Assembly: GCA_903868145.1 (NCBI GenBank)
Contig: CAIPTY010000015.1
Location: forward strand, 1-64,000
Origin: an uncultured Desulfuromonadales bacterium
GTDB lineage: Bacteria; Desulfobacterota; Desulfuromonadia; Geobacterales; Pseudopelobacteraceae
Direction of reading: 5' to 3'
DNA: 64,000 bases
Positions 15,101 to 36,924 of the stretch are shown piece by piece. A program made the translations under genes and the position numbers. The notes under the pieces were generated by a model. That model saw only the letters and a program-made list of their open reading frames with translations. It had not been told where the DNA came from and did no database searches. Every line of letters begins with the position of its first letter. The stretch's first letter is position 1.

Positions 15101-15101
15101 T

Positions 15102-15129: not shown

Positions 15130-15167
15130 GTGAGTCATAAGGACATCAGGTGATACGGGAGTAACCA

Positions 15168-15443
15168 ATGGAAATCACTAATACTGCCCAGCTCACGATC
15201 ATACCGAGGGATTCCCAGAAAACAAGGCCGGTTGCTCACGAAGAGCCGTTGGCAGCCAGGCCCGGCAATGCGGCATTTAACGTTCAGCTTACGGAAAGGG
15301 CGAAGCAGATGAACGAACCTGTCAGAACCGACACAATCAGTCATGACAAGGTGACCTCCATCAGAGATCAGCTTGCTGCCGGCACCTACAGCATCAGTGG
15401 CAAAGATGTCGCCAACAGGATTCTTCAGGCTCTCAAAGGCTGA
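15168..15443 (+). CDS. flgM: Anti-sigma-28 factor FlgM
   Basis: 91 residues, mostly disordered N-terminal half followed by the sigma-binding C-terminus. The segment KVTSIRDQLAAGTYSISGK then DVANRIL is the family signature. FlgM holds FliA inactive until the flagellar hook is complete. It stands alone in this window, away from other flagellar genes. It has its own candidate promoter and a clear terminator. Confidence 0.92.
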   Translation: MEITNTAQLTIIPRDSQKTRPVAHEEPLAARPGNAAFNVQLTERAKQMNEPVRTDTISHDKVTSIRDQLAAGTYSISGKDVANRILQALKG

Positions 15444-15463
15444 TTCCGGCTTTTGAATTCACT

Positions 15464-15493
15464 CAAAAGGCCACACTCATCTGTGGCCTTTTG
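15464..15493 (+). terminator. Rho-independent terminator after flgM
   Basis: Stem CAAAAGGCCACA / TGTGGCCTTTTG (12 bp) with loop CTCATC, 21 nt after the flgM stop. T-rich sequence in the 3' arm supports termination of the plus-strand transcript. Confidence 0.88.
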
Positions 15494-15525
15494 CTTTAAA
15501 CCGGTGCGCTTCCCGGGAGGTTGTT

Positions 15526-19709: not shown

Positions 19710-20585
19710 TCATCTCATGAAATATTCCGCAGTGGTCTTGACCGACCTGATGCCGACTGAAATCTTTGTGCCATCGGCTTTTCTGCCATGCAGGACAAAT
19801 TCACTCAGGCCGACATGATTGCTGCTGCCCCAGTCGTAGGTGTACCCGAGGCGCGTCCAGGGATAGGGGGATGAGCCCATGGTGTAGATGTTTCGGGTGC
19901 GGTTATTGAACCATGAGGTATAGGTTTTGAAAATGCCATAATCCTTTCCTTCGGTCGCCCTGACCTTGTTGTTCAGATCAAGCATCCGGAATGCATCTGT
20001 TGGAAAACTGGTTTCGCAGACCGTATCCGATATCTCGGTGTCTGGACAGGGACGGAAAAGATCCTGCGGGGAGACCCACATTTCCAGCATGTATTTTGCT
20101 TCGCTGGGGCTCCCCTGCACGGCATATTCCGACGGGAGTCCCAGAAGCTGGGCGATGCGGAGCGGTTGGGGTACGGTAACACCAAAAAAAGTTTTGATCT
20201 CCGGTACCACCGTCACCCACGAGTCATATGTGTACGTCGGACATTCCCCGCCTTCAACGCAGGAGGTGTTGCCGCTGCACCCCCCTGGGTCGGCGCATTT
20301 GTAGTATTTCCCCGCATCGCCCAGCCAGGAAACCACCAACAGACGCGATCCCTTCACGCCGTTTTCCCAGATAATGTTGGGATTGTCGTTGGAAATCGGT
20401 GTCAGGTAGCGTGAAATTTTTGAAGGTGTGACCGTGCGTGCATCGGCAACAGCGCTGGAATACTGGGCCTGCAGGCTGACCGGGGCAGACGCGGGAAGCG
20501 CTGCAGAGTCGCTGCCGCAGGCGGCAAGAAGCCAGACGAGTGAGCCGCATGACAGTGTAGTAATTAGGTGTCTCAGGAATCGCAT
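19710..20585 (-). CDS. Lipoprotein of unknown function
   Basis: 291 residues with lipoprotein signal (lipobox LLAAC, Cys ~23). Several paired cysteines follow (CADPGGCSGNTSC, then CPDTEISDTVC), suggesting disulfides outside the cytoplasm. I recognise no family. It is the last gene of the minus-strand exported cluster, 29 nt after the phospholipase B-like gene, with GGGAGG before the ATG. A role alongside the neighbouring exported enzymes is inferred from position only. Confidence 0.7.
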   Translation of the reverse strand: MRFLRHLITTLSCGSLVWLLAACGSDSAALPASAPVSLQAQYSSAVADARTVTPSKISRYLTPISNDNPNIIWENGVKGSRLLVVSWLGDAGKYYKCADPGGCSGNTSCVEGGECPTYTYDSWVTVVPEIKTFFGVTVPQPLRIAQLLGLPSEYAVQGSPSEAKYMLEMWVSPQDLFRPCPDTEISDTVCETSFPTDAFRMLDLNNKVRATEGKDYGIFKTYTSWFNNRTRNIYTMGSSPYPWTRLGYTYDWGSSNHVGLSEFVLHGRKADGTKISVGIRSVKTTAEYFMR

Positions 20586-20614: not shown

Positions 20615-22258
20615 CTACTTCAGATACAGCGGCATCAGTGTGAAGCTGCCGTCCAGCCGATCGGGCACATTGCGCAGTTTCTGCCCCTTCCATATTGACT
20701 GGCTCCAGACGAAGGGGGCCTGGTTCACCTTGGCAGTTCCATACAGCATCCAGAAACCGGTATTCGAAGCTGAGATATCCATCGTTCCGGACAGCCCCAT
20801 GAAAGAGCGGGCCATGCCGGCAGAAGCTGCCTTGGAGTCAACGGAACCATCCGGTATCGTCTTGGGATAGTCCGTCAGCCCATACCCCAGATCCCAGCGG
20901 CCGAAAATTGAGAGGGGGTTGGTCGGATCAGTATAGGTTATGAGGGCTTTGGCAGTCTCAAGATCATTCACACCGGGCAGCAGCTTCTTGAATTGTACCC
21001 GTCGGGCCGGACGATTATCAGTAGACTGGAGATCTTTTGCCACCTGATACGATGCCGGATAGTTGATTCCCATCAGGTAGTCAGAGGTAACCATTTCCGG
21101 GTCGTAATCGGTTGTGCAGACACCGCCGTCCGATGCTTTGCTGGTTACCGTGTAGGGGCCGCCGCTCGAACGGTAGTAGACAAAACAACGATATGACATC
21201 TCCACCAGGCCCGTTTCATTGTTTTTGGCATCCACCAGCATGTAGCCGTTCAGATAGGTACCGGTATTATCCAGCGAAACCGCGTCAAAGAAATCGGTGA
21301 TAGAGCTTGAAAACTGCTCCGCCAGGGCTGCCCGCCAGAAGAGCCAGAGCCCGTCAGTCCTGACCTGGGACTTGGACTGTCGGTGGGTGGTCTCGTTAAA
21401 CATGATCCCCTTGTTGTTGTAGCCGAAATCTGTGCCCGAACCGATAAGTCCGGGTGTTGCTACATTCTCGGTCAACATATCTGTATTCACGGATAGTGTC
21501 TGGTTCATGGTCTGGGAAAGAAATCCCATCCAGGAATTGTGGGTCAGGAATATTTCGCTGCCGCTTCGCTTCAGGAAGGCGGAGCATTTTTCCGGCCTCT
21601 TGGCGGCAGTTCCTTCTGCGGGATGTGAGATAACATCCATAGCGTCATTGAAGGCGTTTATGTAATAGACATCCATGAACGTAACGCCGGCCGTCTCATA
21701 ACCCAGTGAAAGTTCCGCGGCTTTCAGATAGGCGCTGTCAGGCAGCCAGGCACCGGAAAAATCAAGGTCGGACGGCTGGGTGAGGGAGGCACCGTGATAG
21801 ATGCCGAGCATGCGGAACAGGAGTCGCTTCAGGCGGAATGCCGTTACACTGTTTGTGGCGGGGTTGGCGATATATTTCAGCAGGTAGGTATAGTTTGAAT
21901 TCAGCGTGCTGGCCATTGTATCCAGCTCTGCTTTAGTGGGGCCGAGCTGTTTGGGAAAGCCATGGTCGGGATCCGTCAGGTAGGCGTTATCCCAGGAGTT
22001 GTCACGGGCCGACGCGATGGTTTTGCCCTGAAGCTTGCCCTGAATGAATCCCGCCCTGTATTCGGCCTTGAGATCATTGGCATCCTTGGAGACCACGGTC
22101 AGATTGACGATGTTGTTGAGGGTCTCAATCACCCCGGAGGCATTGGCGTCCAGAAGGTAGGTGGTGCGGTTGGATACGGTGGCATTTCCTGAATCGGAAC
22201 AGCCCGCAAAAAGCAGCGCTGACAGCAGACAAACCACAACGTTGATAAAGCGCTTCAT
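20615..22258 (-). CDS. Phospholipase B-like (PLBD family) Ntn-hydrolase lipoprotein
   Basis: 547 residues with lipobox FAGC (C20). It carries landmarks of the mainly eukaryotic phospholipase B-like family. These are KCSAFLKRSGSEIF with C225 as the expected N-terminal nucleophile after self-cleavage, THNSW just after it, NTGTYLNGYMLVD (331-343) equal to the family NSGTYNNQWMxVD, the aspartate region DGSVDSKA, and a final VWSQSIW. The family forms two chains by autoproteolysis before the Cys and attacks amide or ester bonds of lipids. An outer-membrane or periplasmic lipid-hydrolase role is inferred; the exact substrate is unknown. Confidence 0.8.
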   Translation of the reverse strand: MKRFINVVVCLLSALLFAGCSDSGNATVSNRTTYLLDANASGVIETLNNIVNLTVVSKDANDLKAEYRAGFIQGKLQGKTIASARDNSWDNAYLTDPDHGFPKQLGPTKAELDTMASTLNSNYTYLLKYIANPATNSVTAFRLKRLLFRMLGIYHGASLTQPSDLDFSGAWLPDSAYLKAAELSLGYETAGVTFMDVYYINAFNDAMDVISHPAEGTAAKRPEKCSAFLKRSGSEIFLTHNSWMGFLSQTMNQTLSVNTDMLTENVATPGLIGSGTDFGYNNKGIMFNETTHRQSKSQVRTDGLWLFWRAALAEQFSSSITDFFDAVSLDNTGTYLNGYMLVDAKNNETGLVEMSYRCFVYYRSSGGPYTVTSKASDGGVCTTDYDPEMVTSDYLMGINYPASYQVAKDLQSTDNRPARRVQFKKLLPGVNDLETAKALITYTDPTNPLSIFGRWDLGYGLTDYPKTIPDGSVDSKAASAGMARSFMGLSGTMDISASNTGFWMLYGTAKVNQAPFVWSQSIWKGQKLRNVPDRLDGSFTLMPLYLK

Positions 22259-22308: not shown

Positions 22309-23505
22309 CTATTCAGTGGATATCTCCATCTTGATTGCCTCGGCTGGGCATACATGGCTACAGAGTGAACATCCGCTACAAGACGTCTGGTCGAAAACCG
22401 GCAGCAGGTCGTTCCAACCGATGGCTTGGTAGCCTCCGTCACGGCAGGCTGCACGGCAGACGCCGCAGCCTGTGCAGCGCTTTGCCAGCAGGCGGGGGCG
22501 ATAACCATGTCCGGTCGAAAGTTCTCCGAAGCTGGTGGTACTGTTCCGGCGGAGGCCGATAAAATCAGCCGTTTTGGTGAAACCATGCCACCCCATGAAC
22601 TCCCGCAGTTCCTGCTGCATCCCGTCAACCAGCCCGAACCCCCGCAGCATGACTTCGGTACCCACTTGTACCAGCGGCGCTCCCAGGAGCATGAATTCCG
22701 CCGCATCAAAGCCGTTGACTATCCCGCCGCTGGCCATGACCGGTAATCCGGGCAACTGACACAGTTCACTGACCGCACGCAGGGCGATCGGCTTGATACC
22801 GGGGCCGGAATAGCCGCCGTAACTGGTCATTCCGTTGATGTCGGGCTTAGGGCGCAGTGTCTTCAGGTCAAAGCCAAAGAACGAGGGCACGGTGTTGATG
22901 GCGCAAAATCCGTGGGCGCCCGCTTTGGCCAGCTCTTCAGCAATATGCCGGATATCTGCCACTGCAGCGGTCAGCTTGGGGATTATCGGTATGGTTATGT
23001 CCGCGCAGGTTGCCAGCCAGGCGGTTATCCGTGCCGCATAGTCCGGGTTCTGGCCGATGGCCGCTCCGCGTCCCTGCTCCGGGTAACCGTGCGGGCAGGA
23101 AAAATTCAACTCCAGCAGATCCGCCCCGGCATCCTGACATCCCCGTGCCAGGGAAAGCCATTTATCAGGAGCGTCGGCAGTTCCCATGATGCTGCCGATG
23201 ATCGGACGGTGAGGAAAGTCGGTCTTGATGACTTCAATGGCGCGATACCACTGATCGGGCGTCTGCTCGCTCAGCAGTTCCAGGTTTTCAAACCCGGTAA
23301 TCCGGTTACCGTTTCGGATTACGGCAAAGCGGTTGGGCAGGTTTCTCACCGGTTCATGGGTCAGGGTTTTAATTACCGCTCCGCCCCAACCCGCCTCAAA
23401 TGCCCGCCGCACCATGTCACCCGTGGCTGTGGGTGGGGCAGACGCCAGTATGAACGGGTTTGTAAATGCGACGCCAAGATATGTCGTACTCAGATCAGAA
23501 GGCAT
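22309..23505 (-). CDS. preA: PreA-like dihydropyrimidine dehydrogenase subunit
   Basis: 398 residues. A dihydroorotate-dehydrogenase-like FMN barrel (NFSCPHGYPEQGRGAAIGQ is the family hallmark) is followed by two 4Fe-4S motifs: CTGCGVCRAAC and CSGCSLCSHVC. In known systems PreA works with PreT to reduce uracil or thymine. No preT is seen here, so the electron donor or even the substrate may differ. It is cytoplasmic, unlike its exported neighbours, and lies 16 nt downstream of the pyruvoyl decarboxylase gene. Confidence 0.87.
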   Translation of the reverse strand: MPSDLSTTYLGVAFTNPFILASAPPTATGDMVRRAFEAGWGGAVIKTLTHEPVRNLPNRFAVIRNGNRITGFENLELLSEQTPDQWYRAIEVIKTDFPHRPIIGSIMGTADAPDKWLSLARGCQDAGADLLELNFSCPHGYPEQGRGAAIGQNPDYAARITAWLATCADITIPIIPKLTAAVADIRHIAEELAKAGAHGFCAINTVPSFFGFDLKTLRPKPDINGMTSYGGYSGPGIKPIALRAVSELCQLPGLPVMASGGIVNGFDAAEFMLLGAPLVQVGTEVMLRGFGLVDGMQQELREFMGWHGFTKTADFIGLRRNSTTSFGELSTGHGYRPRLLAKRCTGCGVCRAACRDGGYQAIGWNDLLPVFDQTSCSGCSLCSHVCPAEAIKMEISTE

Positions 23506-23521: not shown

Positions 23522-24466
23522 CTAAAAGCCCATCGACTTTTCCCACTCTTTCAAACTCATTTTTTCCAGCACGGCAAAATCGCCGCCGGGCAGTGCCTTC
23601 CTGGCCAGCGTCACGTAGGGGGCGACCGTCAATGCAGTTCCGGCCTCTCCCGGTTTCATCATTACAAATGCATACCCCAGATAGGTGCGATCGTACAACA
23701 CGCTCTGGTTTTTGCCGCAGTCAATGGTCGTTTTGGCTACGTTTTTTTGATGTTCCTTGAGAAATTTGACCATATCAGCTTCATTGTCGTTTTTCGTCCA
23801 AGTACCCGCGTCTTCGATGAACAGACTGGCCGCTTTGGTGCGATCTTTGGCCAGGGAGATACTCAGATAGGCCCATACGCCGTACGCTTCCCCCTTGTCC
23901 GGATTTGGCCTCCCCGTTGCGGGTCGGTAGGACACGGCGCTTTTATTGGCGCATATAATCTGTCCACCCGGTGCCGGTGGAAAACGGCGGGCTTTTTCTG
24001 TCCCGAACAGGGCTTGTCCCGCCTTGAGCAGTGGCGCTACATCGTATACCGGCAGTGGGGAACCGTCATACTGTTTCAGCGTAAACATCGGTTTCTGGGT
24101 GTTGTTTCTGATCTCTTCGGCAGTCGCCAGATCATAGCCCCAGATACTCCCTATCAGTCCGTTGAAAGAAGAGGCGGTAATCATGTTAATCTGCCCGATG
24201 TAGGCGTCGGTGGCTTCGGCCTTGTCGTAGGTAACGATACCGTCAAGCAGCATATCATTGGTTTTTGGCGCGACGCCGGTGGAAAGCTTGAGCACCGAGA
24301 CATACCCCTGCCCTTTAGCACCCGGCATGCCATATCCGTCACAGTAGTCATCAAACGGGCCTATGGCGGTTTTGTCGAATTTTGCGGGTTCAGCAAAAGC
24401 GGTTGAGGTTGAAAATGATGCTGCGCATCCAAGGACAAACACTGCTGCCACGATAATTCTTTTCAT
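23522..24466 (-). CDS. hdcA: Exported pyruvoyl-dependent histidine decarboxylase proenzyme
   Basis: 314 residues. It closely follows the pyruvoyl histidine decarboxylases of Gram-positive bacteria: GYGMPGAKGQGYVSVLK, DGIVTYDKAEATDAYIGQIN, the self-cleavage site ITASSF (Ser99/Ser100), YDGSPLPVYD, FIEDAGTW and TVAPYV. Cleavage would turn Ser100 into the pyruvoyl group that decarboxylates histidine to histamine. Unlike those cytoplasmic enzymes it starts with a signal sequence, either Sec type (AFA before EPAKF) or lipoprotein (VLGC, C14). Its ATG overlaps the stop of the methyltransferase remnant. Substrate by homology only. Confidence 0.85.
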   Translation of the reverse strand: MKRIIVAAVFVLGCAASFSTSTAFAEPAKFDKTAIGPFDDYCDGYGMPGAKGQGYVSVLKLSTGVAPKTNDMLLDGIVTYDKAEATDAYIGQINMITASSFNGLIGSIWGYDLATAEEIRNNTQKPMFTLKQYDGSPLPVYDVAPLLKAGQALFGTEKARRFPPAPGGQIICANKSAVSYRPATGRPNPDKGEAYGVWAYLSISLAKDRTKAASLFIEDAGTWTKNDNEADMVKFLKEHQKNVAKTTIDCGKNQSVLYDRTYLGYAFVMMKPGEAGTALTVAPYVTLARKALPGGDFAVLEKMSLKEWEKSMGF

Positions 24467-24714
24467 AAAATCCCCCTGTGTTTGAAATCGTTGTCGCTGG
24501 CATTACATGGATTTTCCCCACTGACTACAGCAATCTCCTCATCCGTCAGCCCGTACAGTTCATTTACCAGCTTATCTATCTGGCGGTCAACGGCATCAAT
24601 CTGACGCTGGATGAGGGGCTGGTCATGGCCGGTTTTGGCGTTGGCTGAAGCAAGGTTAGGGTCATCTTGAATCCAAAAAGCCGAATAAGCACGAATGTCT
24701 TTAGCTTGGTGCGG
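24463..24714 (-). pseudogene. C-terminal remnant of a class I DNA methyltransferase (type IIG/Eco57I-like)
   Basis: Between two cluster genes the minus strand encodes an open stretch reading AKTGHDQPLIQRQIDAVDRQ, then IDKLVNELYGLTDEEIAVVSG. This is the conserved tail of large SAM-dependent DNA methyltransferase or restriction fusion proteins. The upstream frame is closed by TAG at 24715-24717, so only ~80 codons survive. It overlaps the end of the DUF4239 gene in another frame and its TGA overlaps the hdcA start (ATGA). It marks the scar of a lost restriction-modification gene. Confidence 0.7.
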
Positions 24715-25501
24715 CTATCCCGTCAAGCTTCCAGTATTGCAGAAGATCTGTAAAAGGAGTTGGTGAAACAGCAACCGGCGGCGTGAACGGGAAATTATAC
24801 ATGATCAGCAGATAGTAGACCAAGGCGAGGAAAGCCGCTAAAGATCCTATCATCATGGCATGATGCCTTTCATCCGGAACATCCAGAAAGCAGAGGAAAA
24901 GCAGGTACAGCAAGGTGCCGCCGATCAGAGTCAACCATATCGGAGGGGTAAGGTTGGGTTTGCCGCCGATTATCCGGTTATGGCGATGCCCCCGGTATTC
25001 ACTCAGTTGTCTCATAGTTTCCTGATGAAGCACCAGCTCACTGTTGGTATGGGGATCAAATTTCAGAATCAAGGCGTTGATGCGGTTCATCAAACGGTGG
25101 GCATTTTGATCCTGTTGGGCTTGCGCCAGTTTCGGCCATTCATCATTGATGACAACCTGCACATACTGGCGTATGAGCTGCTTTGCCTGGCCGCTGACCG
25201 GTTCCGGGTACGCTTCCAGGTTGCGATAGATGCTGTGCAGGGAATTTGCCTCCCGGGAAACGTCATCGTTTACCTTATCGTAGTTTTGCCAGATTGCAAC
25301 CGTCACAAAAGTCAGGATCAGGGCGAACACCAGGCCGAGCGAGTTTGAGAAAATATTGCCGAATTCCGTATGATCGGTAAACAGAAACGGTTTGAAAAAG
25401 TACCGCACCGCCCGGAGTGAGATGAGCGACAGGACGACAAATGACACAACCATTATCGCTGCAACGGTATAGGTAGAAAAATGTGAAAAGAAATCGACCA
25501 T
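24701..25501 (-). CDS. DUF4239 membrane protein
   Basis: 266 residues with membrane segments at ~10-30, ~55-75, ~185-205 and ~212-232. Between them is a soluble helical section with REANSLHSIYRNLEAYP and YVQVVINDEWP, typical of the DUF4239 (bestrophin-like) family, whose function is not established. It lies 26 nt downstream of the phosphatase-like lipoprotein gene. Its last codons overlap a methyltransferase remnant in another frame. Confidence 0.8.
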   Translation of the reverse strand: MVDFFSHFSTYTVAAIMVVSFVVLSLISLRAVRYFFKPFLFTDHTEFGNIFSNSLGLVFALILTFVTVAIWQNYDKVNDDVSREANSLHSIYRNLEAYPEPVSGQAKQLIRQYVQVVINDEWPKLAQAQQDQNAHRLMNRINALILKFDPHTNSELVLHQETMRQLSEYRGHRHNRIIGGKPNLTPPIWLTLIGGTLLYLLFLCFLDVPDERHHAMMIGSLAAFLALVYYLLIMYNFPFTPPVAVSPTPFTDLLQYWKLDGIAAPS

Positions 25502-25527
25502 AGTTCTTTCTTCTCCCCCGGAAACTG

Positions 25528-27030
25528 TCAGAACAGAGGCGCCGTGGCCGGCAGACTGGCAGAATTTATGCCTTCGCAGAGTGCGTTGTCTACGGTTAAA
25601 TTACCCAGGGCGTCAAGTTTTACCGTCCAGATGGTGTCGTAGTCAGTGCTCGGCCAACCGCCCAGAGGTGGCCCGTCAGTCGGGAGTTGCGGGATGTTGT
25701 TGCCGCCATAGCTGGTAAGGAGGGCATTTATAATCGGCCTGATATGTCCGGACTCCCACGCCAGCAAAACGGTATGATTGGAAAGCTTGCCGCCGGTAAA
25801 GAAAAAATTACTCGTGGTCTGGGCTGCGACCGGATCGGTCGGATTAGCCCCCAGTGAGAAACTTGATACCAGTGAATAGGGCAGATTATTGTCGATAGCA
25901 AATGGCAGTATCGTTAATGAGGGTCTGACGTACGAAACATTGAAAGTGCCAAAAAGATTGAACCACTGTGCGGGATCGATGGAATAAACCATGTCAGGTT
26001 GTATCTTGCCGCGCAAAGCCTTGGAAAGTGCCAGTGCACGCCATTGCCCCGCCCCCACGTAGTTGCCATCTTCAAATTTGGACCCCGGATCCGGATGCGC
26101 ATCAGTGTGCCGTATGATATAAACCGTTAGTCTGGTGTTGGCGTTTGCAGGAACTACGACGCCATCTACACCGCCGGTCCGTACGGTGCTGAAATAGGGC
26201 TGCGATGTGTTCGTGCATGCAGCGCTCGCAACCGGTGAGGGGAGTACGGGGTAGGTGGCAGGGGGATTCAGATTGCTGTTGTAGGTTACCAGGCTGGCGC
26301 TTCCGGATGACGGAATTGAAACCGCATAGACTAGGTTTGGCCCGCTGTAGGCAACCGGAAGATTCAGGTTATATCCCTGTTGCCTATTTATAAATGTCAT
26401 CAGCGAGTTGATTGTCTTCCAGGGCGCCGAAAAGACATAATAACCGGAGTTTTTCCTGGAGATGATACCGGACAGCAAGGCATCGTTGTTGCCGCCTGTG
26501 TTGTTGTAATCCAGCCCGGTGCAATTTGGACAGTATGAAGTCGGTACAGCAACACCGTCAGGCACGCCCCCTGAGGCATACGCAGCGTTGATCGGGTAGC
26601 TGTTGGCCGTATAGGTAGCTCCCGTAGGATCAACGGGTAGAGTGATCTGGTTAAGAAGGGCGAACTGCTGAATGGAGCCGATTGAGGCCATGTCCGGATA
26701 GTTGTTTGCGGTCTGCAGATGGGTCATCGGCGACAGAGCGTAAATTCCGGTTACGTTATTTCCACCCAGCACCTGCTGCTTCAGAAACGTGGCCATCTGG
26801 AGTGAGCGCTGCAATCCCTGACTGGTGAGGTTTGCCGTTTTTAAATCCACATCACCGGGCGCGTGGTTATCCAGATCCGGGCTTACCACAAAGATCAGAT
26901 TGACATTACTGGCGCTCAGCGGAAAAGGAAAGGTTGAATTGGCACTGGAATTCCCGCTACATCCTGCCAGAAGTGTCACGGCAAGAACCAGGAACAGCGA
27001 AAATACTACGGAGATTTTTTTCATTTTCAT
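25528..27030 (-). CDS. Histidine-phosphatase-superfamily-like lipoprotein
   Basis: 500 residues with lipobox LLAGC (C~23). Two parts resemble the phosphoglycerate-mutase-like fold. The first (IFVVSPDLDNHAPG... and YALSPMTHLQTA) lacks the RHG triad. The second has IIRHTDAHPD, QWRALALSKAL, DMVYSIDP and a late LLAWESGHI that can supply the second histidine. So one half may be catalytic and the other a decayed duplicate. It would act outside the cytoplasm on an unknown phosphoester. Confidence 0.65.
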   Translation of the reverse strand: MKMKKISVVFSLFLVLAVTLLAGCSGNSSANSTFPFPLSASNVNLIFVVSPDLDNHAPGDVDLKTANLTSQGLQRSLQMATFLKQQVLGGNNVTGIYALSPMTHLQTANNYPDMASIGSIQQFALLNQITLPVDPTGATYTANSYPINAAYASGGVPDGVAVPTSYCPNCTGLDYNNTGGNNDALLSGIISRKNSGYYVFSAPWKTINSLMTFINRQQGYNLNLPVAYSGPNLVYAVSIPSSGSASLVTYNSNLNPPATYPVLPSPVASAACTNTSQPYFSTVRTGGVDGVVVPANANTRLTVYIIRHTDAHPDPGSKFEDGNYVGAGQWRALALSKALRGKIQPDMVYSIDPAQWFNLFGTFNVSYVRPSLTILPFAIDNNLPYSLVSSFSLGANPTDPVAAQTTSNFFFTGGKLSNHTVLLAWESGHIRPIINALLTSYGGNNIPQLPTDGPPLGGWPSTDYDTIWTVKLDALGNLTVDNALCEGINSASLPATAPLF

Positions 27031-27067
27031 GTTTCTCCTTGGATTGATGGTGGTTGCCGTACGAGCC

Positions 27068-28459
27068 TCAATAGCTGTTCACACAATTGATAAAATCCTG
27101 TTGCTCCATTTTCGCAACACCGCACCAGAAAATCGGCCAGTTTGTGTTGGTAATCGGCAGGTTCAAACTGCCTGTGGCATTTGTGTAATTATGTCCGGAA
27201 AAATAGTGATCCCGGTAAAGAACCTGTTTCTGGCTATCGGTAACGAGCAGTGGAGTAAGTTGTGCCAGAGAACTCTTCAATGAACCCTGCATGGAGTAAG
27301 TCGCCGAAAAAATGTAGTAGCTGTTGAACTGTGCCGGAGTTGCAGCCAGATCATAGTTAATCACACTATAATCAACCGGCTCAAGTGTAAGGCTTGAAAG
27401 TGCGTAGAGTTTATAGGCAGGATTATTGCCAAATACAGGTGTTATGGAAGGGGTTATCTCCAGCAGATTGTCAGGTGACATTATACGGTATTCATCCATA
27501 TGGGTGTGTGCAGCAAGTGTCATCGCTATAACCCCTTGATATTTTGAAAGTATCTGTATGAAACTGGTCTGATGCGCCGATTGCCACATCATCAGCATCG
27601 GGCTTATCGTGGTAATGTGACCGTTGCTATCGGCACTGACGGCGGCCGCATTTATATCTGCGCCGGGGGGAATATGCATCAGGAGCCACACTTTTTTGCC
27701 TCCTGCCTTGGCTGCTGCAAGTTTTGAGTCAAACCAGGCAAGTTCCGCGTTGACTGCAGTCTCATTGCCCGGGTATGCAAACGGGACGGTATTAAGTCCA
27801 ATAACCATCAGATTTGTTCCTGTCGGCTCTGCGGAATAATATCCTCCACTCTTGAACGTGGTAATAAATTCCTGATGATCTACGGTAGCATTCAAAAATT
27901 TTGTATAGAAAATTTCGGCATTTTTTGAAAGAAAACTGTTTTCCGGCAGAACCCCTACGTATGAATCGCTATTTCCAAGAGCGAACATGACCGGAATATT
28001 TCCGGCTGCCGCTCTTATCTGACCGGCAACAAAGGCAACCGTTTTATCGGCGAACGCCTCCATGGCAGCAACGTCCTCGCTCCCATACAGCGTGAAAAAT
28101 GTTTTCGGAAAGTTGTGGCCTAGAATGTCGCCGGTGTAGATAAGAAACGGACTCGCTCCCAGGTTCTGCTTTATTCCGGAGAGTGCAAGCACAAGTGAAG
28201 GATAATTAGTGTCTTTGCCCCACACGGAAGGTGCTGTGAGCTTTGATGTCTGGAAAATAGCCCCCCACTGACTGGCATCTGCAAGAACAAGCTGCTGAAA
28301 AAGAGATGTGTCATAGTAAGGGTTAAAGTGAACATCCGAGAATACAACCACCGGAAAGTTGCTGGTGGCTGTCGTGGGGGGATTGTCGCTGCAGCCGCCG
28401 CTGATCAGGCAGATGTTCATCAAAACCAGTAAAAATATCCAGCGGCAACTTTTTATCAT
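27068..28459 (-). CDS. Acid-sphingomyelinase-like phosphodiesterase lipoprotein
   Basis: 463 residues with lipobox ISGGC (C~23). Calcineurin-like metal motifs appear in order: SDVHFNPYYD, YTGDILGH, ALGNSDSY, LLMHIPPGAD and AHTHMDEYRI. The order, the variant GNSD, and the paired C-terminal cysteines (FWCGVAK...FINCV) match the acid sphingomyelinase-like group, which cleaves phosphodiesters of sphingolipids, nucleotides or polyphosphate. It would be membrane-anchored outside the cytoplasm. Confidence 0.82.
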   Translation of the reverse strand: MIKSCRWIFLLVLMNICLISGGCSDNPPTTATSNFPVVVFSDVHFNPYYDTSLFQQLVLADASQWGAIFQTSKLTAPSVWGKDTNYPSLVLALSGIKQNLGASPFLIYTGDILGHNFPKTFFTLYGSEDVAAMEAFADKTVAFVAGQIRAAAGNIPVMFALGNSDSYVGVLPENSFLSKNAEIFYTKFLNATVDHQEFITTFKSGGYYSAEPTGTNLMVIGLNTVPFAYPGNETAVNAELAWFDSKLAAAKAGGKKVWLLMHIPPGADINAAAVSADSNGHITTISPMLMMWQSAHQTSFIQILSKYQGVIAMTLAAHTHMDEYRIMSPDNLLEITPSITPVFGNNPAYKLYALSSLTLEPVDYSVINYDLAATPAQFNSYYIFSATYSMQGSLKSSLAQLTPLLVTDSQKQVLYRDHYFSGHNYTNATGSLNLPITNTNWPIFWCGVAKMEQQDFINCVNSY

Positions 28460-28500
28460 GTAAATATCTCCTTTTTATCCACAATTCCGCACGTTCCACA

Positions 28501-28552
28501 CTTTAACCCCATCCCCGCCTGACCGTCCTCATGAAAGGGAAGGGACAAAAGC
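28501..28552. repeat. Third, weaker copy of the GC-rich intergenic element
   Basis: Sequence with AACCCCATCCCCGCC and AAAGGGAAGGGAC resembles the elements at 6591-6711. It lies between the PLP decarboxylase and the sphingomyelinase-like gene. It may slow or end transcription within the cluster. Confidence 0.45.
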
Positions 28553-28565
28553 CAAAAATCCGCAG

Positions 28566-29861
28566 TTATCCGGTAATACCCTTCCTGGCAACATCTTTCT
28601 TGAGGTCTGCGATGAACTCATCAACTGTCATTCTGCTTTCATGCTGCATCAGGATGTCATGGGCCAGGTCGCCGCCGAGTCTCGTGTCGTGGTCGGGGGC
28701 AAGATCCCACTTTTTCATGATCCATTCACCTGGACGCTTGTAAAATACGGTGTTGGACATGGGATTTAGCCAGGCGGGGTACTTCATTTCGTCAAGTTTT
28801 TCCTTCTGATACTTTGCCAATTCAAGAATGTAGGCCGCCTGTCTCGTATACTCTTTTTCGCCGTTGCGGGTCATCTGCCACCAGAACTTTAGCGCCCCCA
28901 ACGCCGAACGGGAACAGGTAATGGTGGGGACGGCATCGTTCAGATACGGAACCTGAAACGGATTCTGGCTGTTGAAAACCGTCTTGGTTGTTATGAAAAG
29001 CCCCAGCGGCTCATCGAATCCGAAGAATTTATGCCCGCTGACGGCAATTGCGTCAAAAGGAAGCTTCTGTCTGTTGATGAGATCCTTGAACGGAGAAAAT
29101 GGCAGATAACCGCCGAAGAGCGCCGCGTCCAGCATGGTGTACACAGCCGGAGGATTAGCCCTGCGTAGAGCGGCTGCTATGGCAGGATGATCGTCAACAG
29201 CCCCTTTAAACGTAGTTCCGATGGCAACTACCACCAGTGCCGGTTTTTTGGGATCAATCACCTTTTCAAAGGCGGCTACGTCCATCTGGCCCATGGGAGA
29301 GGTCGGTATGATCCTCAATTCGAGGTTCTGTATATCAGCCAGTTTTTTGATGGAGTAATGAGCCTGTTGGGAAACGTAGGCAATGGGCAATTGCTTTGTC
29401 ATGGCCTGAAGATATTTGACCCCGAAATACATGCCGTGCATATTGCCGTCAGTCCCGCTGTGGGTCACAATTCCCCAGCTTTCGCCCGGTTTGAACCCGT
29501 ATAATGGCGCGAAATATTCGATAACTTCATTCTCGAATTCGTGGGTATTCATCATGGCGCTCTCTTTCCGAGGGTTGCCCACGTTGTTCATGGACACATT
29601 GCACAGCCCGGAGTCAACAAACCACGCGTAAAAGTCTTTCATATTGAGATCTTCATTTACCGGGTAACCAATGGCATGTTGCTTTCGTTCAATCGCGTCT
29701 TTGGCAAAGGCGTTTAAGCGGTTCATGGGGAGCGGCCCTGCAAAGGCATCGCCAACCATTACCCCCGCCGGTCCTTTGGCCATCAGCTCTTTCAATGTGT
29801 CACCGCCTGCCAATGCAACTGCCATAGCTCCCGTAAGCTTGATGAAGTTTCGACGATCCAT
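28566..29861 (-). CDS. hdc: Tat-exported PLP-dependent histidine decarboxylase-like enzyme
   Basis: 431 residues. A twin-arginine signal (MDRRNFIK at 1-8, then a hydrophobic stretch) precedes a group II decarboxylase domain most like bacterial PLP histidine decarboxylases. Shared features are AIGYP, FENEVIEYFAPLYG, SWGIVTHSGTDGNMHG, stacking His168 in QQAHYS, IGTTFKGAVDD, D245 in MLDAALFGGYLPF and PLP-Lys278 in SGHKFFG. Tat transport suits an enzyme that folds with cofactor inside the cell. The ATG 29861 has GGAGG upstream; a longer open frame to 30434 is a non-coding extension. Substrate by homology. Confidence 0.82.
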   Translation of the reverse strand: MDRRNFIKLTGAMAVALAGGDTLKELMAKGPAGVMVGDAFAGPLPMNRLNAFAKDAIERKQHAIGYPVNEDLNMKDFYAWFVDSGLCNVSMNNVGNPRKESAMMNTHEFENEVIEYFAPLYGFKPGESWGIVTHSGTDGNMHGMYFGVKYLQAMTKQLPIAYVSQQAHYSIKKLADIQNLELRIIPTSPMGQMDVAAFEKVIDPKKPALVVVAIGTTFKGAVDDHPAIAAALRRANPPAVYTMLDAALFGGYLPFSPFKDLINRQKLPFDAIAVSGHKFFGFDEPLGLFITTKTVFNSQNPFQVPYLNDAVPTITCSRSALGALKFWWQMTRNGEKEYTRQAAYILELAKYQKEKLDEMKYPAWLNPMSNTVFYKRPGEWIMKKWDLAPDHDTRLGGDLAHDILMQHESRMTVDEFIADLKKDVARKGITG

Positions 29862-29929: not shown

Positions 29930-30427
29930 TCAGGGCACAGCAGGCCAAGGAACAGGTGCAGTGCCCGCGTATGTCTGGGCTGCAAGGGAATTGCCCGACG
30001 TCGTGAAGTCGCTCGTAAAGACCGACTGGAGCCGTGCGATCATGGCCGGGTCGGTGAAGAGTGTGCCCAGTTCGCGGTTCTGGATCAGCGAGGTGTTTGT
30101 CAGGTTTTCCGATCCGACAAAGGCCTGGACGCCATCCACGATAACCTGCTTGCCGTGCATGTAGAACGGTGTTATTTGAGGCGCCGAGGTGGCGGGCGGT
30201 GTCGGTTGCCCTGGCATAACCCGGATCGAAAGATTCGACAGACCAAGACCCAGCAGTGTCGTCACCGCCGATGCGTTGCTGCCGGTGTCGCCGGACAGCA
30301 GGATGCGGACGGTCGGTTTGGTTGATGATTGAGCCACGGTCTTGATCTGGCAGACCATGTCGGCGTCTGAAATTTCTTCCGTGGTGATTACCAGCGATTG
30401 TTTGGCGCTGACAGCACGCAGATGCAA
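29930..30427 (-). pseudogene. Phospholipase D-like protein, N-terminal half missing
   Basis: The frame encodes ~165 residues equal to the second half of a two-domain PLD/cardiolipin-synthase-like protein. One HKD site is intact: MHGKQVIVDG...FVGSENLTNTS. The first HKD domain is absent, and homology begins mid-protein (SAKQSLVITTEEISD) right after the metallophosphoesterase stop at 30435, with a TTG as the only nearby start. A single-HKD protein could still work as a dimer, but the abrupt start favours truncation. Confidence 0.65.
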
Positions 30428-30434
30428 CGCCCAC

Positions 30435-32264
30435 TTATATCGGTGTTCCTGCCTTGGCGATAACCGCCTGCATCGCTGGTGTCAATTGTACCACAAGTTC
30501 TGCATTTATGGCGTGGGAGGTGGAATCATCAATGGGAGCGGCAGCGGTTATCCGTGACGTGGCGATTGCATTGCCCCGTGATGTTGTTGCAGGTGAAGCT
30601 GCCGCAACTGCCGGGTCAACATTGGTTATGATAATTGAGATGGTGTTGTTGCTGTTACGGCAAATTCTGAACGTACGGAACTGCTGCGGGAAATCCCGAA
30701 GTGACGAAGTCTCAACCTCCCAGAAACTGAGTGTCGGATCAGTGGGATGAATTTGAGGCGTAACGGTGTTCATATGGCGATGTCCGGAGATCCACATGAT
30801 AAGGTTCGGATAGTTTTGGAGTATGCCAAGCAGCGATTGAATCGTAGCTGAGGTTGTTGCATCACTGACAGTGGAATAGGGTGCAGGGAGAAACAGGTCC
30901 ATACGTTGAGGATTTAAGGCCACCTGGGTTGGATCAGTCACAAGACTCTTATACACATTAAAAGGAATATGCGCGGCGATGACCATCAACTGGTTGCTAT
31001 CCTGTCCAGCCTTGAGCTCTTTTTGGAGCCAGTCGAGTCGGATTTGGTCAAGACACCCCGCGGCATAGTTTGGCAGACCGGGGCCTTTTACGGTATCATC
31101 AAGCACAATTATCTTGATCGGGATGTTTGCCTTGGGTAGAAAGCTGTAGCAGGCAAAGCCGCTTCCGCTTTTCATGGCCGGATCTACCAAATGAAAACCG
31201 TGACCGACAGGGGTTGATGTTGTCGTGAAAAATTCTTTTACCCAGTTTGGGCCTGTTGATGTAAGTGTTGAGAGTGAATGACGATTCGGGTCGGCAACAA
31301 CTATCGGGGGCGTGGGGTATTGTCGCTCAGGTCCTGACATAATGACCGCTCCCAATGGATCAGAACCATCAATAACCCCCATATAGTAGCCCGATGCGTC
31401 CACGGCATCCGACGCAGCATTACCAATACCCATATTGAGAACCGTGTTGGAAATATGGGACGCCAGAGTTTTGGCATCCTCATAAAAGGATCCCATCCAG
31501 AACTGATCATGGTTACCGATAACCTGGTACCAGGGAATTGTCTTGTCGAGCCCGGCGGCTTGATACGGCTTCTGATAATCAATGGTGCCGGCCCCGATAT
31601 TGGCGCCGGAGCTGGGGGTGATGAGTTTGCCGTCAATGACGTCAATATACCATCTCAGCTCGTTATACTGCGTGTTGTTGCAGGCATCACCAAGGGCAAT
31701 GCCGAAGTCGAACGGCGATTTTTTGTGCACCGCATTGATCGTCTGAACTGCAGCATCAAGCACGTGGGTCGTTGCGAGTACGACCGGCGAATAGGCCGAC
31801 GAATTGCACGCAGGGCCATATGTCTGGCTCCATTCGATATAGAGGGGTTGAGACGGGGATTCCTTATCAGCAATATGGACGTCGGTTATGGTAAAAAATG
31901 ACAGCAGGAGCGCGGCATTCGGTGATTTATTATAGCCGGGCGCGATGGTGTCCCATACCGTACAGGCCAAACCCTTCCCTACGGTATACGAACTGTAATT
32001 ATACTGGGTATAGAGTGCCAGGTCTTTTGGATTGATCTGAGGCGCGCTTGCAGATACGGGAACCGGGAGAAGCTGGCGTTCTGCGGTTGTGTAGACATCG
32101 CTCGAGATCGGCCACGTTACGGTTTGAGAAGCCGTAGACGTGTTGCTGCTACCGCAGCCGTAGGTCAATGAGCCCAGGGAGATACAGGCAACGGTTCCGG
32201 CGGTATATTTAATAAAATCGCGCCGCGTTACTTCACCGCTCTTTTTTGAATCTTTGTCATTCAT
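30435..32264 (-). CDS. Tat-exported metallophosphoesterase, copy 1
   Basis: 609 residues. Twin-arginine signal TRRDFIKYTAG near residues 13-23 followed by LTYGC, possibly lipidated. Calcineurin-like metal sites: TDVHIADKE, LGDACNNTQYNELRW, IGNHDQFW, AAHIPFN and SGHRHMNTV. It resembles the RPA4764-type metallophosphoesterases as I remember them. It is a paralogue of the gene at 32964-35090, sharing the signal region almost exactly. GGAGG precedes the ATG. Substrate unknown. Confidence 0.83.
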   Translation of the reverse strand: MNDKDSKKSGEVTRRDFIKYTAGTVACISLGSLTYGCGSSNTSTASQTVTWPISSDVYTTAERQLLPVPVSASAPQINPKDLALYTQYNYSSYTVGKGLACTVWDTIAPGYNKSPNAALLLSFFTITDVHIADKESPSQPLYIEWSQTYGPACNSSAYSPVVLATTHVLDAAVQTINAVHKKSPFDFGIALGDACNNTQYNELRWYIDVIDGKLITPSSGANIGAGTIDYQKPYQAAGLDKTIPWYQVIGNHDQFWMGSFYEDAKTLASHISNTVLNMGIGNAASDAVDASGYYMGVIDGSDPLGAVIMSGPERQYPTPPIVVADPNRHSLSTLTSTGPNWVKEFFTTTSTPVGHGFHLVDPAMKSGSGFACYSFLPKANIPIKIIVLDDTVKGPGLPNYAAGCLDQIRLDWLQKELKAGQDSNQLMVIAAHIPFNVYKSLVTDPTQVALNPQRMDLFLPAPYSTVSDATTSATIQSLLGILQNYPNLIMWISGHRHMNTVTPQIHPTDPTLSFWEVETSSLRDFPQQFRTFRICRNSNNTISIIITNVDPAVAAASPATTSRGNAIATSRITAAAPIDDSTSHAINAELVVQLTPAMQAVIAKAGTPI

Positions 32265-32963: not shown

Positions 32964-35090
32964 TTAGGGGAACTTGGCTTTCAATACGTTGACCATCTTC
33001 GTGCTCAACTGTTTGAAAAGTTGCGCATTATACGATGCACAGTAGGGAACACCGGCAGGCGTTCCGTAAACAATAGTCGGATCCAGAGGGCCAGACGTTC
33101 CCAGAGCTCCCTGCGGTCGGGTCGGGTCCATGCTTGGAATCGGTATAAGATTGGGCGCAGTACCAATCGAGGCGTCATTTGTACAGTTCACCAGTAAATT
33201 ATTCTGGACTATCTGCTGCGCTGCGATCGAGTATTTACGTGATTTGGCAGCCGGAGTGCCCTCAGCGACCGCCGGATCAACGTTGACCGTGACGATTGAA
33301 ACCGTATAGTCACTGTTGAGATAGATCTCGAAGGTACGGAACTGCTGAGGAAAATCGTGAAGCGATGAGGTTTCAACCTGCCAGAAACCTTGATCCGGAG
33401 TGCCACCGGCAGGTGGCATGAAAGCCTTAACCGTATTGAGATGTCGATGACCGGCCATCCACATCAGAAGGTTCGGCGAGTTCCAGAGCGTGTCGACAAG
33501 CCCCTTCAGGGTTACGGCATTCTGAACAGTTGTGGACGGATCACCGATCGGATTCGTAGCGGTTCTGCCTCCCTGCCACCACTCGGTTTCGGCAGCGAGA
33601 TTGACGACAGCGATCGGGATATGCGCCGCGATGATCATCAACTGATCGGCAGCCTGACCGTCTGCAAGTTCCTTCTGAAGCCACGCCCAGCGAGTCGCGT
33701 CAAGAAAACCGTGTCCGTGAATATCAACGGATCCGTCGTCTTCCCGTTGGGTATCGTCCAGCACAATGATCTTGAGCGGCACATTTGACTTGGGCACAAA
33801 GCTGTAACAGGCAAAACCTGCCCTTTCGCTGGCCGGAACCAGGTTGAAATTGGGGTTGGATGCAACCAGGTTGAAACCATGCCCGACCGGGCCGGTGGTG
33901 GTGTAGAAAAATTCCTGAATCCATTCCGTCCGCAACAGCGAGCGGCGATTGGGGTCGGCGGCTATCTTTGGAGGAGTGCTGAAATTTGCGACAGGCCCGG
34001 CCTTGATAATGTCGCCAAACGGGGTTGAACCATCGATCACACCGGAATAATACCGGGGCGTCGCGTTCTTCAAAGTGTTCACGCTGAACATGGCCGGGTA
34101 GACGGGGGGAACCGAGGTGGTGTCAGGGATGAGAAAATCCGATACTGTCCAGACCGTATCACTGATAAATGATGAGGCAAGGCCGGTTTCATAGGGAGGG
34201 AGCGAACCGAGCAGAAAATGGTCATGGTTGCCAATCGCCTGATAGAACGGGATCGATTTATCCAGTCCGGCTGCCTGGTATGGCTTCTGATAGTCGATGG
34301 TTTCGGCGCCGAGATGGGAGCCGGAGCTTGGTGTAATGACCTTGCCGTCAATGACGTCAAGATACCATCTGAGCTCGTTGTACATCGTGCAGTTGCAGGT
34401 GTCGCCCAGAGAGATGAAGAAATCAAAGGGATTTTTCTTGTGCAGTGTGTTTGCCGTCTGAATGGCGGCATCGAAGACATGGGTTGTGCACATCATGATC
34501 GGCGAATAGATGGATGTATTGCCACCCGAGTAGGTTTGATCCAGCTGCTGGAGGTAAATGAACGAGTTTGGCGCTTCCTTGTCGGTGATATGGATATCGG
34601 TCATGGCAAAGAAATTCAGCAGCCTGGTTTTGGGTGTGACCTCTTTGGCATTTACTTTGGCTAGATAACCCTTCGGGTCCGCCATGATATCGGTCCGCGG
34701 TACAACCAGGAGAGGAGTGTCTGTATATTTCCACGCGCCATAGCCTCTGCTGTCATATTCTGAAACCTTGCACATTTCAGTTATGCGAAGACCGGCGCCG
34801 CCGTTAGGGCTGGGAGGAACAGGAGAAGAGGGAGGCAGCAGGTTTGGAGGAGGGCTGGCCGGAGTGTAGGGAAATGTGATCATCCTCTCTGCCGTAGTCT
34901 TGACCGTGGAGTCAATCGGGTAGGCTAAGATGCCTGGCGTTGCGCTGTTGCTGCTGCAGCCGTAGGTCAGCGAGCCCAGGGAAATACACGCGACGGTGCC
35001 GGCCGTATATTTCATAAACTCGCGCCGTGTTACATTACTGTTCATTGTTGCTTCGATATCCTGTTTTTGGTCGTCGGTTTCCATGCTCAT
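32964..35090 (-). CDS. Tat-exported metallophosphoesterase, copy 2
   Basis: 708 residues. Twin-arginine signal TRREFMKYTAG near residues 21-31, then LTYGC. Metal sites: TDIHITDKE, LGDTCNCTMYNELRW, IGNHDHF, AAHIPI and AGHRHLNTV. It is ~100 residues longer than its paralogue, with extra proline-rich sequence near residues 75-95 (PPNLLPPSSPVPPSP) and a longer C-terminus. The chosen ATG 35090 has AAAGGGG upstream; an ATG at 35045 is possible. It is the first enzyme gene of the cluster after the small head protein. Confidence 0.83.
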   Translation of the reverse strand: MSMETDDQKQDIEATMNSNVTRREFMKYTAGTVACISLGSLTYGCSSNSATPGILAYPIDSTVKTTAERMITFPYTPASPPPNLLPPSSPVPPSPNGGAGLRITEMCKVSEYDSRGYGAWKYTDTPLLVVPRTDIMADPKGYLAKVNAKEVTPKTRLLNFFAMTDIHITDKEAPNSFIYLQQLDQTYSGGNTSIYSPIMMCTTHVFDAAIQTANTLHKKNPFDFFISLGDTCNCTMYNELRWYLDVIDGKVITPSSGSHLGAETIDYQKPYQAAGLDKSIPFYQAIGNHDHFLLGSLPPYETGLASSFISDTVWTVSDFLIPDTTSVPPVYPAMFSVNTLKNATPRYYSGVIDGSTPFGDIIKAGPVANFSTPPKIAADPNRRSLLRTEWIQEFFYTTTGPVGHGFNLVASNPNFNLVPASERAGFACYSFVPKSNVPLKIIVLDDTQREDDGSVDIHGHGFLDATRWAWLQKELADGQAADQLMIIAAHIPIAVVNLAAETEWWQGGRTATNPIGDPSTTVQNAVTLKGLVDTLWNSPNLLMWMAGHRHLNTVKAFMPPAGGTPDQGFWQVETSSLHDFPQQFRTFEIYLNSDYTVSIVTVNVDPAVAEGTPAAKSRKYSIAAQQIVQNNLLVNCTNDASIGTAPNLIPIPSMDPTRPQGALGTSGPLDPTIVYGTPAGVPYCASYNAQLFKQLSTKMVNVLKAKFP

Positions 35091-35148: not shown

Positions 35149-35361
35149 TCACGCATCAGACCGGCACAGGCCGGGGTTCAGTTGATCGGCAATCTCCGTG
35201 ATCATCTCCAGCTTCAGGCCGGTCAGCATTCGCAACTCTGCCGGGGAAAGCGTATACCCCGCCAGCAGGCAGGCAGACTCCAGCGAATCAGAGGCTGAAC
35301 GGCGAAAACGGCCGTCGGTGATCAACCGACCCAGTAATCTCTCAACAGCGTCTTGTGACAT
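35149..35361 (-). CDS. Small RiPP-precursor-like protein (Franean1_4349-type)
   Basis: 70 residues: MSQDAVERLLGRLITDGRFR at the start, then LLAGYTLSPAELRML and a tail LNPGLCRSDA. The pattern of a helical leader with G-R-L-x-T-D-x-x-F-R and a L-T/S-x-x-E-L motif matches small proteins annotated as Franean1_4349-family RiPP precursors, as I remember the family. AGGAG precedes ATG 35361; an upstream extension lacks support. It is the first gene behind the candidate sigma-54 promoter. No RiPP-modifying enzyme is seen nearby, so it may instead be a small regulatory protein. Confidence 0.6.
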   Translation of the reverse strand: MSQDAVERLLGRLITDGRFRRSASDSLESACLLAGYTLSPAELRMLTGLKLEMITEIADQLNPGLCRSDA

Positions 35362-35383
35362 GATGGCTCCTGAATCAGCAGTC

Positions 35384-35399
35384 TGTCCTAAACAGGACA
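35384..35399. promoter_or_regulatory. Operator-like palindrome 3 (TGTCC-N6-GGACA)
   Basis: TGTCC TAAACA GGACA, extended by one pair to CTGTCC/GGACAG (35383-35400). It lies 22 nt before the ATG of the small head gene, downstream of the expected transcription start, so binding here could block or tune expression. Confidence 0.6.
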
Positions 35400-35435
35400 G
35401 ATCTGCAAATGTGAATGCAACACAAAGGGATAGAA

Positions 35436-35453
35436 AGCTAAAACTGTGCCGAA
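35436..35453 (-). promoter_or_regulatory. Candidate sigma-54 (-24/-12) promoter
   Basis: On the minus strand TTCGGCACAGTTTTAGCT holds GG (35450-35449) and GC (35438-35437) with exactly 10 nt between, the fixed spacing of sigma-54 promoters (consensus TGGCAC-N5-TTGC). It deviates at T-26 and T-13. A sigma-54 activator gene lies immediately upstream, and activator-type palindromes stand 62 and 81 bp before the GG. Confidence 0.6.
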
Positions 35454-35504
35454 CTTTTATTTTGTGTAATTTAAGGTGTTTATGAGTAAAGGACCACATA
35501 ATGT

Positions 35505-35565: not shown

Positions 35566-36924
35566 TCAGTAAAACAGCTTGCGGGAGGCCTTCAAGAGGC
35601 GTGCTGCGGAGGACTTGTTGTTGCCACACCTCTCCATGGCCCACTCCACCACCTGTCTATTGACTGCATCAAGGGAGAACTCTTCGAGTGAAAAGTTGAA
35701 ACAGAGGGAGATACGGTCTGTCGTCCCTGCTTCAGGAAAGGGGGTATACTGGCGTTTCAAGCGCAGATGTTCCGGCTGGATCAGATCGCCGTTGGTAACA
35801 ATTGAGGCGTACTCTATCAGGTTGCGAAGTTCCCGTACGTTGCCAGGCCAGTCATGGGTCATCATCAGGTCGAGAGCCGCCTTTGACAGACCGGGCAATG
35901 CCTTGCCCTGATGCTGCCGGAAAACGTTGAGGAACAGCTCGGCAAGCTGCGGTATATCCTCGCGGCGCTCACGCAGGGGGGGGATTGTGATGGGAAAGAT
36001 ATTCAGGCGATGGTAGAGATCGCGCCTGAAGACCCCGAGATTGCAGCATTCGTCCAGGTTGCGGTGTGTGGCGACGATGATGCGGCAGCCTGCGGTGACA
36101 GTGCGGTCGGAGCCGACCTTTTCATACACACGCTCTTCCAGCAGGCGCAGCAGTTTAGGCTGAAGTGACAGAGGCATGTCTCCAATCTCATCCAGAAAAA
36201 GGGTGCCGCGATCTGCCCGGCCGCATTTTCCCTCCCGGTCGCGATCAGCGCCGGTAAAAGCACCTTTCACATGGCCGAACAGCTCGCTTTCCAAGAGGGT
36301 TTCCGGGACTGCGGCACAGTTAATCGCCACAAAGCTTGTCATATTCTGCCCGGAAGCCACATGAATAGCCCGTGCCAGCACCTCCTTCCCAACCCCGCTT
36401 TCGCCGAAGATGGAGACGGTTGTTCGTGGTGAGGCCGATACCTGTTTCGCCGTAGCCAGGGTAGCCCCCATGACGGGGGAACTGCTGGACATGCTCTGAA
36501 AGCTGAACTTTTCCCGTTCGGAATTCTGTATCCGATCCAGGCTGACCCGTAGACGGGCGTTTTCCAGCAGCCGCTCAACCACCAGCAGCAGTTCCTCCCA
36601 GTTGAGCGGTTTCAGCAGGTAGTCGTCGGCGCCTTTTTTCATTGCCTCCACGGCGCTGTCAACGCTGCCGTGCCCGGTGACCAGAACAAAGGGAAGCTGT
36701 GTGTGATGTTCACGCACCCGGTGCAATAAAGCCACACCATCCATCTCCGGCATGACCATATCGGACAGTATCAGGTCGAAGCTCCCCAGTTCCAGTTCCG
36801 CCAACGCGTCCTCTCCCGATGCGACACAGGTCGTCTGGTAACCCGCATCATCAAGGTACCCCTTGATCATGAAGCGAAAGCTTTGTGTGTCGTCAACTAC
36901 CAGTATTCGTCCGTATGATCCCAT
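35566..36924 (-). CDS. NtrC-family sigma-54 activator response regulator
   Basis: 452 residues: receiver (acceptor Asp in [14 protein letters not shown]), AAA+ domain with GESGVGKE, the sigma-54-contact loop [15 protein letters not shown] and [11 protein letters not shown], then a Fis-type HTH. The HTH ends at [10 protein letters not shown], a few residues shorter than usual (normally ...TLYRKLKEYG), so the recognition helix is near the terminus. It begins 2 nt after the hybrid kinase gene, its likely partner, and lies just before three palindromes and a -24/-12 element. Confidence 0.93.

Follow-up and report, generated by a model that had tools for sequence, protein, structure and literature searches.

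A putative exported pyruvoyl histidine decarboxylase and a second decarboxylase with a twin-arginine signal in one gene island of an uncultured Desulfuromonadales bacterium

Bacterial histidine decarboxylation has been described as a cytoplasmic, antiporter-dependent process, and a genome survey of histamine producers demanded a nearby antiporter (PMC8465708). Antiporter-free exported histidine decarboxylases (HDCs) would have escaped that survey, because a nearby antiporter was its search criterion. In that survey, the occurrence in one organism of both HDC types, the pyruvoyl type and the pyridoxal phosphate (PLP) type, was reported only for Plesiomonas shigelloides, in distant clusters (PMC8465708). 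Here we analysed a stretch of 64 kb, hereafter the window, which is the first part of contig 15 in the genome (3.8 Mb, 97% complete) of an uncultured Desulfuromonadales bacterium. It encodes a pyruvoyl HDC proenzyme (positions 23522–24466, minus strand) and a group II PLP-dependent decarboxylase (28566–29861, minus strand); both genes, and their spacing of 4.1 kb, were found as originally predicted. The pyruvoyl HDC is what the window has in common with the described hdcA/hdcP and adiA-gadC-hdcA systems (PMC8465708). However, those systems are described as cytoplasmic with an antiporter nearby, whereas the window HDC has a signal-like N-terminus and no adjoining antiporter. Homology, catalytic residues, signal-like N-termini, gene context and the absence of a GadC-type antiporter led us to propose that the window encodes an antiporter-free extracytoplasmic amino-acid decarboxylation module, with a probability of about 60%. 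What seems new is the combination of a predicted exported, antiporter-free pyruvoyl HDC with a predicted exported PLP-dependent partner, and this combination seems to recur. In agreement with the claim that no such system had been described, the open-access literature yielded none, and nothing relevant on periplasmic or secreted amino-acid decarboxylases.

Profile searches revealed that the 314-residue pyruvoyl enzyme matches PF02329 end to end (E=1e-129, 432 bits against a cut-off of 25) and exceeds the equivalog cut-off of TIGR00541 (394 versus 347 bits). It was also aligned by phmmer to chains A and B of the solved Lactobacillus enzyme (1hq6), and its self-cleavage site TASSF occupies residues 97–101. 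Comparison with HdcA of Lactobacillus saerimneri 30a (PDB 1pya/1hq6) showed that nine of nine mapped residues (I59, Y62, D63, E66, S81, S82, F83, F195 and E197) are identical; these are established as the active site and the Ser-Ser cleavage site of HdcA. The two proteins thus share family, Ser-Ser site and active-site residues, but the window proenzyme carries a putative signal peptide and its genome has no GadC-type antiporter. The N-terminus of the window HDC, MKRIIVAAVFVLGCAASFSTSTAFA, precedes the family domain, which begins at the point where cytoplasmic relatives start, such as that of locus L004 with MSENIDKTAISPF. This extension contains a hydrophobic core with a mean hydropathy of 3.1 over 10 residues. 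It can be read as a Sec signal cleaved by signal peptidase I (Sec/SPI) and, possibly but less surely, as a lipoprotein signal via Cys14. Judged by sequence, the gene product is, as originally predicted, a pyruvoyl HDC with a signal peptide; its cytoplasmic relatives have none. The likely product of the enzyme is histamine. Among 277 genomes of the class searched, the window genome is the only one with a pyruvoyl HDC, and the gene was therefore probably gained horizontally. Directly upstream, at about 24469–24700 on the minus strand, a frame resembles by eye a restriction/methylase-type C-terminus (QPLIQRQIDAVDRQIDKLVNELYGLTDEE), which may mark an insertion edge.

The second enzyme (431 residues) belongs to the HDC/serine decarboxylase superfamily and matches PF00282 above cut-off (2e-20). 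Its Schiff-base lysine (K278, in the SGHK motif), PLP-stacking His, N1-binding Asp and catalytic Tyr are all present, which assigns it to the group II PLP decarboxylases. The residues H168, T216, D245, A247, H277, K278, Y306 and S317, whose roles in PLP holding and proton donation are taken from solved serine/alanine decarboxylases, are intact. However, the enzyme scores only 267 bits with the HDC model PRK02769, below the equivalog cut-off of 305. The same model gives 281 bits for the sister protein of locus L041 in genome G086, 477–489 bits for cytoplasmic homologues of the same class, and 591 bits for an HDC-like protein of Shewanella marina, whose gene adjoins an APC-type transporter. Maximum-likelihood analysis groups the six exported-type PLP sequences into a single clade (100/100), with a branch of 3.1 changes per site between it and known HDC and plant serine decarboxylase. 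Both sequence and predicted fold place the window enzyme closest to solved plant serine/alanine decarboxylases, with HDC next; the fold comparison is coarse, given an AlphaFold model with a pLDDT of 75. In the plant enzymes, serine versus alanine specificity is set by the Y111/F106 position (PMC11407765); at the specificity position the window enzyme has Val, as against Glu in HDC and Tyr in serine decarboxylase. It shares fold and PLP-binding residues with the PLP-type HDC of Photobacterium phosphoreum (7eru/7erv) and the plant serine/alanine decarboxylases (8jg7, 8jik), but is about 30% identical to them, sits on a long separate branch, and carries extra residues after the GYP motif as well as the Val and a predicted export signal. 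As profile cut-off, tree, nearest structures and specificity residue all disagree with an HDC, we do not call it one, and the original claim of two HDCs in one cluster held for the pyruvoyl enzyme and failed for the PLP enzyme. It is better described as a putatively exported group II decarboxylase whose substrate is not necessarily histidine.

The N-terminus of the PLP enzyme, MDRRNFIKLTGAMAVALAGG, carries twin arginines at residues 3–4 (MDRRNFIK, within MDRRNFIKLTG), as had been claimed, and a ribosome-binding site, AAGGAGGTAACAGT-ATG, stands ahead of its start at 29861. It matches the twin-arginine translocation (Tat) model TIGR01409 with 18.7 bits, above the cut-off of 16.7, and its core is moderately hydrophobic (hydropathy 1.98). 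TatC is encoded in the genome; together these features make the enzyme a predicted Tat substrate. Every member of the exported clade with its N-terminal end present shows a signal-like N-terminus, but the twin arginine is found in the window member only: the relative in L041 has a Sec-type signal (MKKYILSGCMVLATALAATAGE), and those in L043, L046 and L061 have signals of the same kind. We considered a strict rule by which the cofactor dictates the export route, and dropped it as general on account of these Sec-type signals in PLP relatives of four other genomes. Cofactor and route are thus not rigidly linked, since the closest PLP relatives start with Sec-type signals. The predicted matching of route to cofactor fits the window and one further locus with another PLP family, described below. 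In genome G036, the exported PLP gene is split across two contig ends (L042 and L046), perhaps because a repeat or mobile element lies there.

A contig scan yielded 16 relatives of the window pyruvoyl HDC, so that 17 HDCs were examined. Signal-like N-termini are present on four of them, in two separate lineages: the window, L003 (a Deltaproteobacteria/Myxococcota metagenome-assembled genome, MAG; its HDC is 81% identical and keeps the extension), L007 (a Planctomycetota MAG) and L016 (a MAG labelled Aerophobetes). Peak N-terminal hydropathy is 3.0–3.5 in these four versus 0.1–1.3 in the four cytoplasmic relatives measured, and the HDC tree implies that the exported state changed at least twice. 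In L007, the exported-type HDC gene is directly followed by that of a 566-residue aspartate 4-decarboxylase (10920–12620; TIGR03801, 644 bits against a cut-off of 435), whose N-terminus, MNRRDFGAVSLGILAGAWTG, is a Tat-type signal. Going by these N-termini, L007 is an independent case of a Sec-type pyruvoyl enzyme paired with a Tat-type PLP enzyme. Its partner, an enzyme that the window lacks, is however of the aminotransferase class I/II family and acts on another substrate. The pyruvoyl HDC of L007 is the only one among 294 genomes of its phylum. A phospholipase-B-like gene, comparable to that at 20615 of the window, was co-located by tblastn near the HDC gene in L007, L008 and L016. The proteins of L012, L014, L015, L017 and L018 are divergent PF02329-type members (31–41% identical; that of L012 falls below the TIGR00541 cut-off) and may decarboxylate other substrates.

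The genomes of the exported and cytoplasmic forms also seem to differ in their transporters. A GadC-like gene adjoins the HDC gene in the cytoplasmic relatives L004, L008, L009, L010 and L011, and the first four of these also have an AdiA-like decarboxylase, the known three-component adiA-gadC-hdcA layout. In contrast, no GadC-like gene was found in the window or its genome, in a search that covered the GadC type and not other transporter families. Overall, a GadC-type antiporter was detected in 9 of the 13 genomes whose HDC is cytoplasmic, but in no genome of the four exported-type HDCs (Fisher one-sided p=0.03), a comparison of few genomes, some of them incomplete, with about two independent events and cases that are not phylogenetically independent. 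Against the genomes with a close cytoplasmic HDC the difference is none of four versus 7 of 8 (Fisher one-sided p=0.01), the eight having been picked after the divergence of the remaining HDCs was seen. We regard the contrast as suggestive.

Besides the scope of the antiporter search and the small, related sample, several points weigh against the proposed module. The export signals were assessed by hydropathy and motifs, and the Pfam TAT_signal match of the PLP enzyme falls below cut-off. With export being a prediction, the extensions might be membrane anchors or mis-called starts, leaving both enzymes in the cytoplasm like known HDCs. We consider this quite improbable, as the extensions show a positive n-region, a hydrophobic core and cleavage-type sites, the HDC extension is kept in L003 and signal-like extensions are present in other lineages, the called PLP start has a good ribosome site, and the genome has no GadC-type antiporter. 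The PLP enzyme itself has the longest end branch of its clade (0.61) and a Met next to the PLP-binding Asp where its relatives have His; it could be drifting or inactive. Furthermore, the PLP gene is broken in genomes G203 and G099, and is thus dispensable. A serious competing explanation, to which we give slightly less than even odds, is that the HDC is exported and active, while the PLP protein has nothing to do with it, being either another exported decarboxylase (for serine, alanine or another amino acid) or a decaying enzyme, the two sharing the island by chance and not as a paired system. The sub-threshold HDC score with plant serine/alanine decarboxylases as nearest relatives, the PLP genes without a pyruvoyl HDC in G086, G084 and G036, the rarity of the pyruvoyl HDC in the class and the PLP-gene remnants in G099 and G203 all favour it. 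Chance pairing is, however, harder to reconcile with L007, where a Sec-type HDC again lies beside a Tat-type PLP decarboxylase, from a different PLP family.

These comparisons enabled us to propose a putative model for the extracytoplasmic module. The Sec machinery would carry the unfolded HDC proenzyme across the inner membrane, where it would fold and cleave itself at the Ser-Ser site, making its own cofactor. Since the proenzyme would cleave itself outside, no cofactor import would be needed. Acting in the periplasm or on the cell surface, the HDC would then turn histidine into histamine. Its PLP-dependent partner would fold and load its cofactor inside, cross via Tat, and act on an amino acid that is not necessarily histidine. 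With both enzymes outside, a histidine/histamine antiporter would be dispensable. Each turnover would consume one proton outside the inner membrane, alkalinising the surroundings and releasing amine and CO2. As the proton would be consumed on the outer side, no proton motive force would be built, unlike in cytoplasmic antiport systems. The benefit would have to lie in alkalinisation of the surface or periplasm, in amine release, or in the processing of scavenged amino acids. If the model is true, it would represent a second way of bacterial amine production, missed by antiporter-based surveys and with bioenergetic consequences opposite to those of antiport systems, and it would raise the question of how a self-cofactoring proenzyme matures beyond the membrane. 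More tentatively, and on the doubtful side, several phyla may have independently moved amino-acid decarboxylation outside, with Sec for pyruvoyl proenzymes and with PLP enzymes partly pre-loaded via Tat, yielding an acid-consuming, amine-releasing activity in which export replaces the antiporter. The original observation is confirmed, its matches not being chance similarity, and its interpretation as a pair making histamine outside the inner membrane is partly supported, about half of it being right.

Both decarboxylase genes are accessory cargo of an island of genes for exported enzymes that probably moves horizontally. The island comprises 15 genes on one strand, from 39374 down to 19710, with most gaps below 110 bases; all window features given here lie on the minus strand. 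It is headed by an NtrC-type sigma-54 response regulator (35566–36924; PF00158, PF00072), with an orthologue of 79% identity at the same place in locus L080 of G086, and its probable partner, a hybrid histidine kinase with SnoaL-like and PAS domains (36927–39374; 64% orthologue in L080). From its position, the regulator may control the island genes; matches to the sigma-54 promoter consensus were at chance level (81 versus 76 expected) with no site standing out, and a scan for sigma-70 promoters and terminators stayed below the shuffled mean. The core genes further include two TIGR03768 metallophosphoesterases, one with a Tat-type motif (32964–35090; 4e-239) and one with a Tat signal (30435–32264; 9e-174; TIGR01409 above cut-off), an exported calcineurin-type phosphoesterase (27068–28459; PF00149; 58% orthologue in L080), and a lipoprotein with histidine-phosphatase-like features by eye (25528–27030) that has no Pfam/NCBIfam match but orthologues of 67–68% identity in L080 and L044. 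Between the two decarboxylase genes also lies that of a bestrophin-like (DUF4239) membrane protein (24701–25501; PF14023, 1e-48). Downstream of the HDC gene are a dihydroorotate/dihydropyrimidine dehydrogenase-like protein with a 4Fe-4S domain and no signal peptide (22309–23505; PF01180, 3e-30), a phospholipase-B-like Ntn-hydrolase lipoprotein (20615–22258; PF04916, 1.6e-11), and a lipoprotein (19710–20585) with no Pfam/NCBIfam match and an unusable AlphaFold model (pLDDT 30), counterparts of which (77% and 68% identity) lie beside the PLP-gene remnants in L044 and L062. The dehydrogenase-like gene likewise adjoins the PLP gene in L041, with fragments near the remnants in L044 and L062. In G086, the L080 island has kinase, regulator, phosphoesterases and histidine-phosphatase-like lipoprotein without decarboxylases, and the PLP gene lies elsewhere, in L041.

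This setting bears on the purpose of the enzymes. They might serve a general scavenging island (phosphoesterases, lipases, chitinase, dipeptidase, deaminases) feeding on dead biomass, in which decarboxylation offsets hydrolytic acid or modifies amino acids before uptake. This concerns purpose and is compatible with the proposed mechanism. The exported-phosphoesterase core under one regulator pair, and the exported dipeptidase, deaminase, chitinase and arginine deiminase of sister islands, speak for it, but no histamine or amine transporter was identified in the window and the gain from discarding carboxyl carbon is not evident; we hold it to be a reasonable possibility, though we would sooner bet against it. 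Alternatively, histamine or another amine might be released as a signal or deterrent, or the enzymes might deplete competitors' amino acids. Histamine is a bacterial chemoattractant and signal (PMC8231116), and an exported arginine deiminase occurs in a sister island; but no host, receptor or immunity gene was seen, so that this idea, an argument by analogy alone, appears unlikely. For the extracytoplasmic module itself, alkalinisation tied to scavenging is weakly favoured as the purpose.

Several smaller features were noted within the island and its sisters. A phospholipase D (PLD)-like fragment at 29930–30460, with a single HKD motif and overlapping its neighbour, is apparently a remnant; a 34-residue stretch of it is 91% identical in L080. 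The gene at 35149–35499, which separates the NtrC regulator gene from those of the phosphoesterases, encodes a small relative of Franean1_4349-type precursors of ribosomally synthesized and post-translationally modified peptides (PF14407 just below cut-off), which is kept in L061 and L080. Sister islands contain usually cytoplasmic enzyme families with signal-like N-termini, which speaks for the proposed module. In L044 of G099, a run at 7869–15883 encodes an aminohydrolase/deaminase, a DHH/DHHA2 phosphatase and a beta-Ala-His dipeptidase, all with such N-termini, and a pyruvoyl enzyme of the phosphatidylserine decarboxylase family (PF02666 and PF12588), again with one. In L041 of G086, a member of the arginine deiminase family that carries a signal peptide (13012–14382) is encoded near the exported-type PLP decarboxylase and a lipoprotein chitinase of family GH19.

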